Origin: a candidate division Zixibacteria bacterium HGW-Zixibacteria-1 | GTDB lineage: Bacteria; Zixibacteria; MSB-5A5; GN15; PGXB01 | Reading direction: 5' to 3' | NCBI GenBank assembly: GCA_002838945.1 | Contig: PGXB01000023.1 | Location: 1 to 54,979, forward strand | DNA length: 54,979 bases | Shown here: positions 3,271 through 27,800 of the stretch, piece by piece | Layout of the letters: the number at the start of each line of letters is the position of its first letter | How positions within the stretch are numbered: the stretch's first letter is position 1 | Made by a program: the position numbers and the translations under genes | Notes under the pieces: generated by a model | The model's input: the letters and a program-made list of their open reading frames with translations, nothing else | Told to the model about the DNA's origin: nothing | The model's database searches: none

Positions 3271-3547
3271 ATCAGGCTCAACGGCTTAAACCAATCCAGC
3301 CAAAACAAGTTCCTTTTAAATCTCAAATATTACTGTTTTCAAACCTCAATAATATGTCATTTGCAGCGGGCACTGGCAATATAAATCGATTCCAGTAATT
3401 GATCTTAATATCATATCAAATTTTGATTCTGAATGGCCTTTATATGCAATTAAGTCGGTTTTATTTTGCCCTTTCGGCACATGTGGTTTAAATTTAGTTT
3501 TATCCAGCCTGATGAAGTTCGGACAGAGAAAGGGGATAAGCAGAAAG

Positions 3548-5017
3548 ATGAAATCACGATTGACAAAATGGTCGTTCGGAATAGTTATCGCTTTATGCAT
3601 TATCTATGCGGTACTGCTTATTCCTGATTCGAGTCGGCCCGTTTCCGTCGCAGGCGAAAAAGAGCCCTTTGCCTGGAACCGCGACGAATACTGGTCGCAT
3701 CTTGAATCAGCTTTCAAGCAAGCCCGACAGACCGATTGCCGTGATCTCGCGCCCCTTATATCCGATCGGTTCGCCGCCATCGACAGCCTGCTTTTACCAT
3801 TAAGAGCGGATACACTCGAACCGGATGCGCCGCTGTTCGCGGCTCTTGAAAATGCCTTTTTCGAACAGGGGGTGCTTCTGGCCGCCTGCCCGGAAAACCT
3901 GAATGAATATATGCGGCGCTTCAGCCAGCTTAGAGGGCTATTGAAGGATCAGTCCATCCGCTGGGATATGAATTCGCCGGCGGCACGCAATTGTCTTTAT
4001 CGTCTCCTTTACGGCGGACGGACGGCTGTAGAGGAAGTGATGATGCAGGCTCCAAAAGAATTGATTCACCAGACTGTTTCCGGTGTCGATGAATCTTCGG
4101 CAACTCCTATGGCGGAAATACTGGGCGTCAAAATTCACAGCGGCGATATCCTGATTTCCCGCGGTGGCGCACCGACTTCTGCCCTGATAGCGCGCGGAAA
4201 TAACTACCCCGGAAATTTCTCGCATGCTGCGCTGGTCTATGTCGATGAAAACACCGGCGGTGTCTCCATCATTGAATCGCATATCGAGAAGGGCGTGGCT
4301 GTCGCGACGATTGATGATTACCTCCGAGATACAAAACTGCGGGTGATGGTGCTCCGGCTTCGTGCGGATTTGCCCTCAATGATCGCTGACCCGATGTTGC
4401 CTCACGAAGCCGCCGAATATGCCCTGCAAAGGGCAGTAAGCGAACATATTTCTTATGATTTCGCCATGGATACCAAAGAGCCGTCACGACTATTTTGCTC
4501 CGAAGTCGTTTCTGATGACTACCGTCATGTCGGTATCAATCTCTGGGCGGCGCTGTCACATATCTCAAGTCCCGGTGCCATATCATGGCTGTCCGCCTTC
4601 GGTGTCAGGAATTTTACGACCGAGGAGCCATCCGATCTCGAGTATGACCCGCAGCTTCGGGTGGTGGCGGAATGGCGGGATTACGAAACGCTGTACAAGG
4701 ACCGGCTCGACAATGCCGTCGTTGACATTATGCTTGAAAGCGCCGATAATGGTGAGCAACTTGATTATGACTGGTATGTGCTGCCTCCGGGAAGAGTTCT
4801 TAAACTGTACAGCATGATTCTAAATCAATTTAATGCGGTTGGCCCGGTTCCCGAGGGCATGAATGCCTCGGCCGCCCTGCGCAATAAGTGGTTCTCCAAT
4901 AAACATTTGGCGGCGAAGGAAAGGCTTATGGTGCTCGCGGATAAATTTAAACAGGAATACGGCTATTTGCCGCCTTACTGGGAATTGATCAAGCTGGCCA
5001 GAGAGGCATATAAATAA
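3548..5017 (+). CDS. YiiX-type permuted NlpC/P60 papain-like enzyme, membrane anchored
   Basis: A single N-terminal hydrophobic segment (WSFGIVIALCIIYAVLLI) anchors an approximately 460-residue periplasmic part. The C-terminal half carries the circularly permuted NlpC/P60 order of YiiX proteins: SGDILISR, then FSHAALVY with the catalytic His (about residue 226), IIESH (Glu), and RLFCSEVV with the catalytic Cys (about 317). This family includes peptidoglycan or lipid amidases and transferases; the substrate is unknown. ATG 3548 is preferred because a GAGAAAGGGGAT stretch lies upstream. An in-frame ATG at 3512 adds 12 residues but has no ribosome-binding site. The gene ends at a strong terminator. 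Confidence 0.8.
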   Translation: MKSRLTKWSFGIVIALCIIYAVLLIPDSSRPVSVAGEKEPFAWNRDEYWSHLESAFKQARQTDCRDLAPLISDRFAAIDSLLLPLRADTLEPDAPLFAALENAFFEQGVLLAACPENLNEYMRRFSQLRGLLKDQSIRWDMNSPAARNCLYRLLYGGRTAVEEVMMQAPKELIHQTVSGVDESSATPMAEILGVKIHSGDILISRGGAPTSALIARGNNYPGNFSHAALVYVDENTGGVSIIESHIEKGVAVATIDDYLRDTKLRVMVLRLRADLPSMIADPMLPHEAAEYALQRAVSEHISYDFAMDTKEPSRLFCSEVVSDDYRHVGINLWAALSHISSPGAISWLSAFGVRNFTTEEPSDLEYDPQLRVVAEWRDYETLYKDRLDNAVVDIMLESADNGEQLDYDWYVLPPGRVLKLYSMILNQFNAVGPVPEGMNASAALRNKWFSNKHLAAKERLMVLADKFKQEYGYLPPYWELIKLAREAYK

Positions 5018-24974: not shown

Positions 24975-24982
24975 TTCCATTC
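24975..24982. repeat. Target-site duplication of the IS1-family element, left copy
   Basis: TTCCATTC directly abuts the left inverted repeat. The identical 8 bases directly abut the right inverted repeat at 27793-27800. An 8-bp duplication fits IS1-family insertion. Confidence 0.9.
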
Positions 24983-25001
24983 GGTAGTGTCCTAATTTGA
25001 G
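24983..25001 (+). repeat. IS1-family left terminal inverted repeat
   Basis: GGTAGTGTCCTAATTTGAG, an exact inverse complement of 27774-27792. It begins GG, as IS1-family ends do. Confidence 0.92.
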
Positions 25002-25084
25002 ATATTGATGTGATTGTTATTTAATATGACGATAAATAATTTAACAAGTTGGCACAAAATATGTTATAACTTATGGAGACAAAA

Positions 25085-25750
25085 ATGTTTTCTTGTATTT
25101 TAAGAAATTTGTTTACAAATGCAAAAAAAGTTTATACTTTTATTATAAGCGAGGCTATGAGACACAAATTTCCAAATCGACAGTTTAGGCAAAACAGTCA
25201 AAAGCTTAAGGAGCTAATATTATATATTAGCCGATCTTATGCAAATGTTCAATATAGTGGCAAAACCAAACTGAACAAACTTCTATTTGCAATTGATTTT
25301 GACGCCTTCGAAAAACTTGGTAATCCAGTGACGGGTGCGCAGTATAAAAAAGGTAAGAATGGACCAATACCATTTTCAATGATTCCCGTTTCAGCAGAAA
25401 TGGTGGAAAATGGGGAACTAAGATTTACTGAAGAAAAATTAGGCAATTTCCCCCAACAAAGACCCATTGCATTGCGTTCACCCGATATGAGTGTTTTTTC
25501 AAAAGAGGAATTGGCAATTATTAACGAATGGGTTGAAACGATGAGAAATGAACGGGCGGTCGATCTCAGTAGATGGTCACATGGATTACCAATTTGGGAA
25601 TATTCCGATAATGAAGGCTTTATTCCATATAATCGTATTTATTGGAAAATACCGCAGAGTAAAGATATCACAGATAGAGATAGGCAAATAGCTGAAGAAA
25701 TATTCAAGATAACGGGTGGAAAACACATTCCACGACCCCGTCAATTGTAA
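25085..25750 (+). CDS. Panacea-domain protein (antitoxin-type, SocA/DUF4065-like), element cargo
   Basis: ATG 25085 is preferred because GGAGA lies just upstream; an ATG four codons earlier is the alternative. The core resembles the Panacea (formerly DUF4065) domain of SocA-like antitoxins: ANVQYSGKTKLNKLLFAIDFDAFEKLGNPVTGAQYKK, with the KLxKLLYxxDxxxxxxxGxxxxGxxYxxxxxGP pattern, then GPIPFSMIP and a LSRWSHGLPIWEYS segment near the end. In known systems Panacea proteins neutralise diverse toxins encoded beside them. Here the only adjacent small gene converges from the opposite strand, with a 10-base overlap of stop ends. The pairing is therefore a suggestion only. Confidence 0.75.
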   Translation: MFSCILRNLFTNAKKVYTFIISEAMRHKFPNRQFRQNSQKLKELILYISRSYANVQYSGKTKLNKLLFAIDFDAFEKLGNPVTGAQYKKGKNGPIPFSMIPVSAEMVENGELRFTEEKLGNFPQQRPIALRSPDMSVFSKEELAIINEWVETMRNERAVDLSRWSHGLPIWEYSDNEGFIPYNRIYWKIPQSKDITDRDRQIAEEIFKITGGKHIPRPRQL

Positions 25751-26046
25751 TCAATATCCTGCAGTATTATGTATTCGCCCTCGTCGTCCTCTTCAACGGT
25801 AAAATATATGACAAATTTATTTAGCCAACGAGGGGTAATGGATTCATATTTAAAAAGATTACTATTATTATGGGGAATGTCTGCGCATTCATGGGCATTT
25901 ACCGTCAAAAATTGCACAACCCCATCCATAAAATACTGGAATTCAGCCCAAGTTACGCCTGACGGTAAATGGCGGTAAAACGCCTTTATCTTACCCTCCA
26001 TGCGTTTGATAGTAATGACATCCCTATCTTTTTTATCAAGTTCCAT
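25741..26046 (-). CDS. Small protein of unknown function, element cargo, possible toxin partner
   Basis: This gene encodes 101 residues, begins MELDKKDRDVITIKRMEGK, and ends with FVIYFTVEEDDEGEYIILQDIDYN-type strands. That last segment faintly resembles the C-terminal strands of RelE/ParE-type toxins, but I do not see the family's basic catalytic residues clearly. It lies 30 bases downstream of the transposase on the same strand, so it could be co-transcribed. Its 3' end overlaps the convergent Panacea gene by 10 bases. Base composition matches the element. Function is unknown. Confidence 0.55.
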   Translation of the reverse strand: MELDKKDRDVITIKRMEGKIKAFYRHLPSGVTWAEFQYFMDGVVQFLTVNAHECADIPHNNSNLFKYESITPRWLNKFVIYFTVEEDDEGEYIILQDIDYN

Positions 26047-26076
26047 AAAAAAATATCTTTCTATTCATCTATAAAG

Positions 26077-26889
26077 TCAACTTAAAACCCAATCCCAGCT
26101 TGCAACAGTTTTAGAAATTCCCGCTTTCATGGCCGGAGTCATTTTCAATGATCCGTGTAAACGCATAAAGTTGTAATGCCAAAAATGGAGATTTAGCGCG
26201 GCCTTAAGGCTGTCAAGACTCTTTGAAAAGGCAATAGTGAGGCGAGAGAAACGGCGCAATTGCATCCGAATTGTTAAATTTTGCCGCTCCACAAACGAAG
26301 TGCAGATTTTTTCAGGTTTGGGTTTTCCGCTTATCACGCTTTTTTCAGTCTTTCTCAATTTACATGGGCTATAACCTTCGCGACGACCATTTTCATCGCC
26401 ATGATAAATCTTTTGCAATACCGCATAATGGATGTTATAACCGAAAGCTGACTTTACCGCTTCTAAATAACCGCGAAACATATCCGTTGTCAACTGGAAT
26501 TGACCATTTACACGCCTTTGCAACTTTTGCATAAACCAATAGGCGGTAAATGTGTTTCGTTTTCCTACCTCAAAGACAGGCACTATTTTGGTTTCCCTAT
26601 CCAAAGCGATAAAGACATATTGGTCGCCCAATTCGTCAGGATCACCAACTTTAAGCTGTTTTTGCTTTTTCCCGACATAAGTCCAAATCTCATCACATTC
26701 GAGATATTTACAGCGGAGTCCCCGCATATTCTGATCCATAAAAGCTTGGCAATTTTCACCGACACGCTTCATAAGTCTAATTATAGTATCCCTGTGGACA
26801 CCAGTAATCCTCTCTATTCCTCTTATGCTGTTTCCTTCGACTAACAAATTCAGCACCATTTCTTGTTTTTCGGCTTTCAGGCAATTCAT
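26077..26889 (-). CDS. IS1-family DDE transposase
   Basis: An intact 270-residue transposase. Residues 8-45 form a helix-turn-helix (GNSIRGIERITGVHRDTIIRLM). The catalytic triad is Asp66 in LECDEIWTYVG, Asp136 in TTDMFRGY and Glu201 in FVERQNLTIR. The terminal HFWHYNFMRLH and TPAMKAGI motifs are typical of single-frame IS1-type transposases, which lack the programmed frameshift of enteric IS1. It catalyses cut-and-paste or copy transposition of the element whose ends are at 24983 and 27792. AGAGGAAA precedes the ATG. A 120-base leader separates it from the tRNA-like gene upstream. Confidence 0.92.
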   Translation of the reverse strand: MNCLKAEKQEMVLNLLVEGNSIRGIERITGVHRDTIIRLMKRVGENCQAFMDQNMRGLRCKYLECDEIWTYVGKKQKQLKVGDPDELGDQYVFIALDRETKIVPVFEVGKRNTFTAYWFMQKLQRRVNGQFQLTTDMFRGYLEAVKSAFGYNIHYAVLQKIYHGDENGRREGYSPCKLRKTEKSVISGKPKPEKICTSFVERQNLTIRMQLRRFSRLTIAFSKSLDSLKAALNLHFWHYNFMRLHGSLKMTPAMKAGISKTVASWDWVLS

Positions 26890-26973
26890 GACTTTCCTCT
26901 TGACTTTTTTGCGGGAAAGCCGATATTTTAGTTGGCTTAACTGTGCGGCTTACCCCGCGCGGTTAGTGTTCAG

Positions 26974-27001
26974 CCTGCCAGGTGTGACCGCACTTGGCAG
27001 G
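26974..27001 (-). other. Strong hairpin between tRNA-like gene and transposase
   Basis: CCTGCCAGGTGTG / CGCACTTGGCAGG pair over 12-13 positions (two G-T pairs) with a tiny loop. It lies 8 bases beyond the tRNA-like 3' end on the minus strand, inside the transposase leader. There is no U-run on the minus strand, so it is not a classical terminator; it could mark the 3' boundary for tRNA processing. Confidence 0.6.
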
Positions 27002-27009
27002 TGTTTCAT

Positions 27010-27082
27010 GCGGGCGGGGGCGATTCGAACGCCCGACGTGGGGATTAGCAATCCCCTGATCTTTCCGCTGATCTACGCCCGC
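27010..27082 (-). tRNA. tRNA-like gene, anticodon GCU (Ser codons) with short variable loop
   Basis: The minus strand folds as a cloverleaf. Acceptor arms are GCGGGCG / CGCCCGC, the D stem GATC/GATC with an 8-base loop, the anticodon stem GGGGA/TCCCC around TTGCTAA (anticodon GCT), a 5-base variable loop ACGTC, and the T arm GGGCG-TTCGAAT-CGCCC. The GCU anticodon reads AGC/AGU serine codons, yet bacterial serine tRNAs carry a long variable arm, which is absent. One extra C sits between the T stem and the acceptor 3' strand. No CCA is encoded. It lies inside the IS1-family element, upstream of and co-directional with the transposase. It may be a divergent, decayed or mimic tRNA; charging by seryl-tRNA synthetase is doubtful. 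Confidence 0.75.
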
Positions 27083-27095
27083 ACAAATTTACCGG

Positions 27096-27123
27096 GGACT
27101 CAGATAGGGAATTATCTGAGTCC
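27096..27123. other. 11-bp perfect hairpin next to the tRNA-like gene
   Basis: GGACTCAGATA / TATCTGAGTCC with a six-base loop. On the plus strand it is followed by TTTTATTTAGTTTTT and so looks like a plus-strand terminator. On the minus strand it lies 13 bases before the tRNA-like 5' end. Confidence 0.6.
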
Positions 27124-27224
27124 TTTTATTTAGTTTTTATCTTGACAGATGGTGGCCCCCGTATTACCTTACAAATGTAAGGGCGATTTCTCATAACATT
27201 GTCCTTACTTGCACGTTAAGTTTC

Positions 27225-27254
27225 GGGGTTATCTTGGTAGCACAAGATAATCCC
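27225..27254 (-). terminator. Hairpin downstream of the winged-helix-like gene
   Basis: GGGGTTATCTTG / CAAGATAATCCC (one G-T pair) with a six-base loop, located 8 bases after the stop codon on the minus strand. There is no strong U-run, so it may act as a weak terminator or a 3' stabiliser. Confidence 0.45.
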
Positions 27255-27261
27255 GTTCTGT

Positions 27262-27618
27262 TTAATCTTCTTTCTTGATCGCCCTCCAAAGACCTCTTTT
27301 CGGAGATTGAAATAGACGACCCTTCCACCGCATAAGAATTTGTCTTACTCTGGCATCAGAGATTTCAATTCCGGTCTTGTGGAGATAATCAAAGAGTTCT
27401 TTCGGTGCCGCTGGCTTTCCAAGAGTCAACATAGCCTCATAGATTTTCTGTGTCGAATCTCCGACGTTGTCATAACCACCAAGCGTGGCAGGTTCGACCA
27501 TAGGTATTTCAAGCTGATCCTTGCCTATTAATGCTGCAATCTCACGCTTAGATTTTTGCAGGCGTTCAATTTTGGCATCAATTAGGGCGATCAATTCTCT
27601 TGCAGTTTCCCTATCCAT
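27262..27618 (-). CDS. Small winged-helix-like DNA-binding protein, element cargo
   Basis: ATG 27618 follows AAAGGTG; an upstream in-frame ATG at 27678 lacks such a site and would run through the operator boxes. Of 118 residues, the first 40 form a charged helix (MDRETARELIALIDAKIERLQKSKREIAALI). The last 60 (KPAAPKELFDYLHKTGIEISDARVRQILMRW, then a FQSPKRGLWRAI wing) look like a winged helix. Three CGTATCAT boxes lie around its promoter, which suggests an autoregulator. It has no named family that I recognise. Confidence 0.6.
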   Translation of the reverse strand: MDRETARELIALIDAKIERLQKSKREIAALIGKDQLEIPMVEPATLGGYDNVGDSTQKIYEAMLTLGKPAAPKELFDYLHKTGIEISDARVRQILMRWKGRLFQSPKRGLWRAIKKED

Positions 27619-27642
27619 ATTTTCACCTTTGTTTGGTTTACT

Positions 27643-27700
27643 CGTATCATAATATATAATTAAGTATTGCCGTATCATTTGTCAACAAAAAAATGATACG
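27643..27700 (-). promoter_or_regulatory. Promoter with three CGTATCAT operator-like boxes
   Basis: Two direct copies of CGTATCAT (27643-27650, 27671-27678) and one inverted copy (27693-27700) lie just upstream of the winged-helix-like gene. The last two form a perfect 10-bp inverted repeat, CGTATCATTT / AAATGATACG. A TTGACA -35 (minus strand, 27685-27680) lies between them, so bound protein would block polymerase. Confidence 0.6.
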
Positions 27701-27773
27701 AAGGACAAATTATTTATTTGGGGTTGTGACTATTCATACAATAAACAAATGTGCAGTATACAAATGAAAAATC

Positions 27774-27792
27774 CTCAAATTAGGACACTACC
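27774..27792 (-). repeat. IS1-family right terminal inverted repeat
   Basis: Exact inverse complement of 24983-25001. Confidence 0.92.
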
Positions 27793-27800
27793 TTCCATTC
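27793..27800. repeat. Target-site duplication, right copy
   Basis: TTCCATTC, identical to 24975-24982. Confidence 0.9.

Follow-up and report, generated by a model that had tools for sequence, protein, structure and literature searches.

Mismatched-anticodon tRNA-like genes as recurring cargo of an IS1-type transposon family

Why would a transposon carry a tRNA-like gene whose anticodon does not belong to its body? The question is raised by contig PGXB01000023.1 (54,979 nucleotides; hereafter the window) of the candidate division Zixibacteria bacterium HGW-Zixibacteria-1 (assembly GCA_002838945.1), in which a tRNA-like gene with a serine anticodon lies upstream of an IS1-type transposase gene. 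Mismatched-anticodon tRNAs are a recurring, almost undescribed transposon cargo, and related elements in other phyla carry similar ones. Judged from sequence, the most likely explanation is a transposon-encoded, aminoacylatable, mis-decoding tRNA. To the full reading, in which a functional tRNA gene of the transposon yields an RNA that is charged, acts in trans and mis-decodes, we assign a probability of about 45%.

A tRNA-like gene within exact transposon borders

ARAGORN detected a single tRNA in the 55-kb window, on the same strand as the transposase gene, and called it tRNA-Ser with anticodon GCT (Table 1). The sequence matched the covariance model RF00005 at 54.5 bits (E 1.3e-10; gathering score 29). 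A default-filter Rfam scan of the whole window and an RF00005 scan of the bacterium's own genome both missed the gene, and these scans were not treated as negative results. The RF00005 alignment and the predicted fold showed that all four stems are paired, as first claimed, with a canonical T loop and the D-loop GG, and the minimum free energy (MFE) of -37.5 kcal/mol (z -3.5) was equalled by none of 200 shuffles. These results confirm that the tRNA-like sequence is real. The two irregularities described initially were also found: the variable loop consists of five nucleotides (ACGTC), and a single surplus C separates the T stem from the acceptor stem. The acceptor branch comprises a 7-bp acceptor and a 5-bp T stem (7/5) with one extra base. 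The short loop bears out the reported misfit to serine tRNA and excludes a normal tRNA-Ser, since the host tRNA-Ser(GCT) (locus L299) has a long variable arm. The host tRNA set, including this normal tRNA-Ser(GCT), is complete, and the tRNA-like gene is therefore unneeded for ordinary decoding.

The transposon carrying the gene spans positions 24983-27792 (2,810 bp) with exact boundaries, and its 18-bp terminal inverted repeats (TIRs) and 8-bp target-site duplication (TSD) establish at base resolution that the gene is transposon-borne. The G+C content is lower across the transposon than on either flank. An empty site was sought in relatives, in which the genes flanking the insertion were not syntenic, and also at ptsH-ptsI in a sister genus.

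Recurrence with the transposase family

We gathered relatives of the transposase from 132 genomes of the window's phylum and 395 genomes of Desulfobacterota, the phylum of a Desulfobacterales relative, and detected tRNA-like genes by ARAGORN, a covariance model and sequence reading; the counts are lower bounds set by the genomes searched. A tRNA-like gene was located directly upstream of the transposase gene, on the same strand, at 9 of 23 loci in the window's phylum and at 10 of 30 loci in Desulfobacterota, in total 19 of 53 against ~0.15 expected by chance. The same transposase is preceded by tRNA-like genes at L260/L282, L261/L280 and L263. Both ends were mapped for 25 elements, 10 of which contain a tRNA-like gene (the window, L061, L064, L065, L069, L070, L074, L114, L268 and L290). 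Related elements have TIRs of GGTAGTGGGTCAGTTTGA or near variants and mostly perfect 8-bp duplications. With the window's TIR type the TSD was perfect in five of six elements and matched at 7/8 in the sixth, and with a second type an 8-bp TSD accompanied 17 of 21 candidate TIR pairs. The TIR pattern had 42 matches across 30 genomes of the window's phylum, compared with two for a reversed control pattern. These results show that the transposon has defined borders and that its transposase family is repeatedly accompanied by tRNA-like genes, in several phyla.

Two elements of other make-up were also observed. L114 (2348-4896) is non-autonomous: it has TIRs and a TSD and contains a DUF5343-like gene and a pair of tRNA-like genes but no transposase. 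L337 (48-523) is a miniature element of 476 bp whose TIRs are related and whose 8-bp duplication is perfect. With a covariance model built for the compact RNA type described below, more cases were found beside other genes in both phyla, and also in three genomes of other groups and in one phage-like contig. On this contig (L130), a compact tmRNA-like mimic with G3:U70 (3449-3516, plus strand) directly precedes an open reading frame (ORF) for a SprT-like metalloprotease, and a partial repeat of the mimic lies near 4224. A broad pattern scan for compact tRNA-like genes in viral contigs returned 80 loci and no case beyond L130, and a search of viral contigs for transposase relatives found none. 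Searches of phage and plasmid DNA with the compact tRNA-like sequence gave only short matches to tRNA- and tmRNA-type 3' halves. Alphaproteobacterial plasmid relatives share the transposase and TIRs, and a tRNA-like gene was not found in the loci examined.

Two classes of RNA with mismatched charging identity

The RNAs fall into two classes. Class A RNAs are compact (~68 nt); the D arm is tiny, and the anticodon arm has roughly nine pairs and a loop that is usually GUUUGCA. G3:U70 and A73 were present in 19 of 19, although both partners vary in four other acceptor pairs. G3:U70 is the identity element of alanyl-tRNA synthetase (AlaRS) (PMC7609411), as is also well established; the class A anticodons bear no relation to alanine identity. 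Several class A genes, such as those of L113, L114, L259, L261 and L263, encode CCA. Class A resembles the tRNA-like domain of transfer-messenger RNA (tmRNA; RF00023) in G3:U70, A73 and a reduced D arm and matches both ends of that model, but the score (up to 37 bits) is under the 47-bit cut-off, and a closed 7-nt loop stands in place of the mRNA-like domain. The element in the window does not carry class A. Beside class A RNAs with mostly UUA anticodons, the transposase genes of L278, L280, L281 and L282 end in TAG or TGA and never in TAA, in too few cases to support a conclusion.

Class B RNAs are full cloverleaves with an anticodon foreign to the body. The group with a serine anticodon (GCU or ACU) includes the window gene and those of L065, L075, L263, L268, L272, L290, L283 and L069. 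An A directly after the D-loop GG (A20) was present in 10 of 10 aligned class B genes, including L273 and L067 with other anticodons. A20 and C35, together with U or G at position 36, are identity elements of arginyl-tRNA synthetase (ArgRS). The window gene has A20, C35 and U36, with G at position 34 (G or A in its group), and in the host genome A20 was found only in Arg tRNAs, the host tRNA-Ala being read with G as the base after G18 G19. The proposal that a different synthetase charges the RNA thus received specific support. In other phyla, too, the three bases occur together with G34 or A34. The bodies of L065, L075, L263, L283 and L273 are nearest to host Arg tRNAs. The window's group shares A20, C35, U36 and the short variable loop with tRNA-Arg (UCU/CCU), whereas its position 34 would shift decoding to the serine AGY (AGC/AGU) codons, and the window body overall is not closest to tRNA-Arg. 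At the sequence level, the window group is characterized by an ArgRS-type identity predicted to read serine AGY codons.

Other class B genes combine a Leu-type body with UGC (L070) or a Ser-type body with UAU (L271, before the transposase). Gly-type bodies with odd loops occur in L064, L066, L113 and L114, the anticodon and body assignments of the Gly-type genes and of L067 being uncertain. The second tRNA-like gene of L042/L064 is Gly-type (ARAGORN anticodon tccc), and its anticodon loop, CUUCCCAC, has eight bases, a feature of frameshift suppressors.

Stem pairing in homologous copies, the loss of which had been named as grounds for a decayed or chance fold, was kept through paired changes. 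In class A, 86% of the cells were paired, with two-sided changes in 107 cells versus 38 in shuffles, and for the window's type of class B the values were 96% paired and 49 versus 14 two-sided changes, these shuffle controls not removing relatedness among the sequences. The class B count excludes the window row, since the extra C there displaces the acceptor columns. These results show that the cloverleaf is under selection in the relatives and, at the sequence level, that charging identity is systematically mismatched with the anticodon.

The RNAs share with allo-tRNAs an anticodon unrelated to charging identity, as in the Ser-type body with UAU of L271. Allo-tRNAs and 'irregular tRNA' polycistrons were tentatively linked to transposons (Mukai et al. 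2017, as reviewed in PMC7609411); here, by contrast, the carrier transposon is identified, together with its ends and the family to which it belongs. Allo-tRNAs also differ in having an 8/4 or 9/3 branch and a long variable arm, and the window RNA, with its 7/5 branch and short loop, is predicted not to be a substrate of seryl-tRNA synthetase.

Possible functions of the RNAs within the element

The other parts of the transposon are listed in Table 1. Like IS1-family elements with passengers, it has an IS1-type DDE transposase, short TIRs and an 8-bp target duplication. The elements described here differ in their size (2-3.5 kb), tRNA-like gene, winged-helix gene and RxPP leader peptide, and, for the window transposase, in the score against the NCBIfam IS1 model NF033558 (77.7 bits, under the cut-off of 100). 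AlphaFold modelled the winged-helix gene product as a helix plus a winged helix-turn-helix (wHTH), with a predicted local distance difference test score (pLDDT) above 90 for the wHTH part. Family searches with the 101-aa ORF gave no match; ORFs of ~100 aa also adjoin Panacea-like genes in L061 and L112. Panacea-type genes beside small unassigned ORFs recur as cargo or neighbours (window 25073-26046, L061, L067 and L112). An anti-phage defence reading of the element was dropped, as PADLOC gave no match better than E 0.001.

Table 1. Features of the transposon and its target site in the window
Feature	Position	Strand	Evidence or remark
TSD, left copy TTCCATTC	24975-24982	.	8/8 identity with right copy
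Left TIR GGTAGTGTCCTAATTTGA	24983-25000	minus	18 bp, no mismatch; chance expectation from shuffles 0.02
Panacea-domain (SocA-like) antitoxin-type passenger gene	25073-25750	plus	PF13274 46.7 bits, above cut-off
101-aa ORF adjoining Panacea gene, possible toxin partner	25741-26046	minus	Position and recurrence
IS1-type DDE transposase, 270 aa	26077-26889	minus	PF03400 34.9 bits, above Pfam cut-off; D66, D136, E201 conserved (invariant columns)
Leader stem GCGGG..AAGCC / GGCTT..CCCGC around AATATC	26911-26960	minus	Aligned leaders, with matching changes in L033, L036, L037, L088; present in leader MFE structure
Hairpin with six-base loop, 3' of tRNA-like gene	26974-27001	minus	Recurs in L033, L036, L037, L038, L088
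tRNA-like gene	27009-27082	minus	Anticodon GCU, A20, 5-nt variable loop, extra C before 3' acceptor strand, A73, CCA not encoded
Hairpin GGACTCAGATA/TATCTGAGTCC preceding tRNA-like gene	27096-27123	minus	Recurs in relatives
Small ORF MRNRPYICKVIRGPPSVKIKTK with arrest motif RGPP	27126-27194	minus	22 aa
Coiled-coil and winged-helix (HARE-HTH-like) gene	27262-27618	minus	Long ORF to 27678, but relatives begin at MDRETARE
Promoter-like site TTGACA-18-AATTAT preceding winged-helix gene	27656-27685	minus	No comparable site between tRNA-like gene and transposase
Right TIR TCAAATTAGGACACTACC	27775-27792	plus	Complement of left repeat
TSD, right copy TTCCATTC	27793-27800	.	8/8 identity with left copy

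In the charged-tRNA reading, the operon would be transcribed from the promoter preceding the winged-helix gene, and tRNA-processing enzymes would excise the cloverleaf, to which CCA would be added. The window RNA would be charged with Arg and the compact RNAs with Ala. Acting in trans, the charged RNA may then serve the ribosome as a weak decoder of the missense or nonsense type, possibly alongside the arrest-type leader peptide and the toxin-antitoxin-like cargo. More tentatively, this may be a widespread IS1-type family encoding aminoacylated tRNAs with non-matching anticodons (Ala with UUG/UUA, Arg with GCU/ACU, Leu with UGC and Ser with UAU), whose life cycle would include deliberate mis-decoding or the occupation of ribosomes.

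Several observations weigh against a charged, mis-decoding tRNA. Processing of the window RNA could be hindered by the surplus C, by further pairing of the flanks and by a U-1:A73 pair that may form, and its gene does not encode CCA. Overall body identity is highest with host Thr/Gly tRNAs (68-69%) rather than Arg; nothing but the identity positions indicates Arg. A tRNA-like gene is absent from 15 of the 25 mapped elements. The mistranslation of AGC/AGU codons suggested in the first-pass annotation drew no support from two indirect tests: the transposase genes of tRNA-bearing elements do not avoid AGY (0.41 of Ser codons versus 0.38 in elements without a tRNA), and no recoding is needed. AGY codons occur at invariant Ser positions of the transposase, and efficient mis-decoding would therefore damage the element's own transposase. 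Recoding of the transposase by the tRNA to restore conserved Arg residues was rejected, since no AGY codon was found at an Arg position.

The strongest competitor, possible although we doubt it, is a cis-acting leader element in which the cloverleaf, the hairpins and the RGPP peptide form an RNase P or tRNA-maturation cut site, or a roadblock, that limits transposase expression from transcripts of the winged-helix promoter or from outside. The window anatomy fits such a regulator of the transposase leader, as had been suggested originally: the tRNA-like gene lies between the winged-helix and transposase genes on one strand, with no promoter comparable to TTGACA-18-AATTAT between it and the transposase, and shuffles fold much less well than the complete leader (z -5.3). 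Small upstream ORFs with R-x-P-P are recurrent: of 47 elements or arrays, 11 have one, against 1 of the 141 regions used as controls and 1.45% of random segments (P about 6e-11). The 22-aa ORF of the window has RGPP near its C-terminus. RGPP was the most robust, EF-P-resistant arrest motif of those tested, and in many phyla no four-residue sequence is avoided more strongly (Fujiwara et al., PMC12992588). The known RAPP/RGPP arrest peptides (PMC12992588, PMC10951233) likewise have RGPP near the C-terminus of a leader small ORF; they are linked to a protein-localisation gene, whereas the putative peptide here, recognized by its sequence, is linked to a transposon.

The leader proposal does not fit some elements outside the window. 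In L069 the tRNA-like gene lies on the strand opposite the transposase, L114 has no transposase, and in one group a consensus promoter (10-12/12) intervenes between the tRNA-like gene and the transposase. It also leaves unexplained the invariant AlaRS identity and encoded CCA of class A. A charged RNA acting in trans is favoured over a leader structure because of the conserved charging identity, the encoded CCA, L114, L069 and the intervening promoter. In L044, L055, L267, L271 and L273 the transposase promoter has a 17-bp spacer that contains, sometimes twice, a palindrome like TGACCGCTCA/TTGAGCGGTTAA, likely a repressor site.

It is unlikely that the RNAs are addiction or decoy cargo that serves the toxin-antitoxin-like passengers or guards against tRNA-cutting enzymes, with selection on the tRNA look-alike instead of decoding. 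The Panacea-domain protein of the window, the similar ORF pairs beside related elements and the altered anticodon loops, which suit nuclease-resistant decoys, are consistent with such a role, but the partner ORFs belong to no recognised toxin family, several tRNA-bearing elements lack a Panacea gene, and a decoy needs no invariant charging identity. Decay of a captured host tRNA within the element is improbable and was largely refuted by the covariation: the extra C and the poor score or bad fold of L075 and the second L066 gene suggest decay, whereas the paired changes across phyla, the recurrent retention and the invariant G3:U70, A73 and A20 speak for maintenance. A chance fold was refuted by the RF00005 score, the folding z-score and the 19 of 53 recurrence.

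Mismatched-anticodon tRNAs in metagenomes were earlier left as curiosities, with a transposon link merely suggested. That a defined mobile element, with its ends, target duplications, transposase and cargo, carries such tRNAs repeatedly across phyla makes their purpose testable. Should the RNAs prove to be charged, missense and suppressor tRNAs would have a natural source in transposons, and mobile DNA would have a route to altering decoding.
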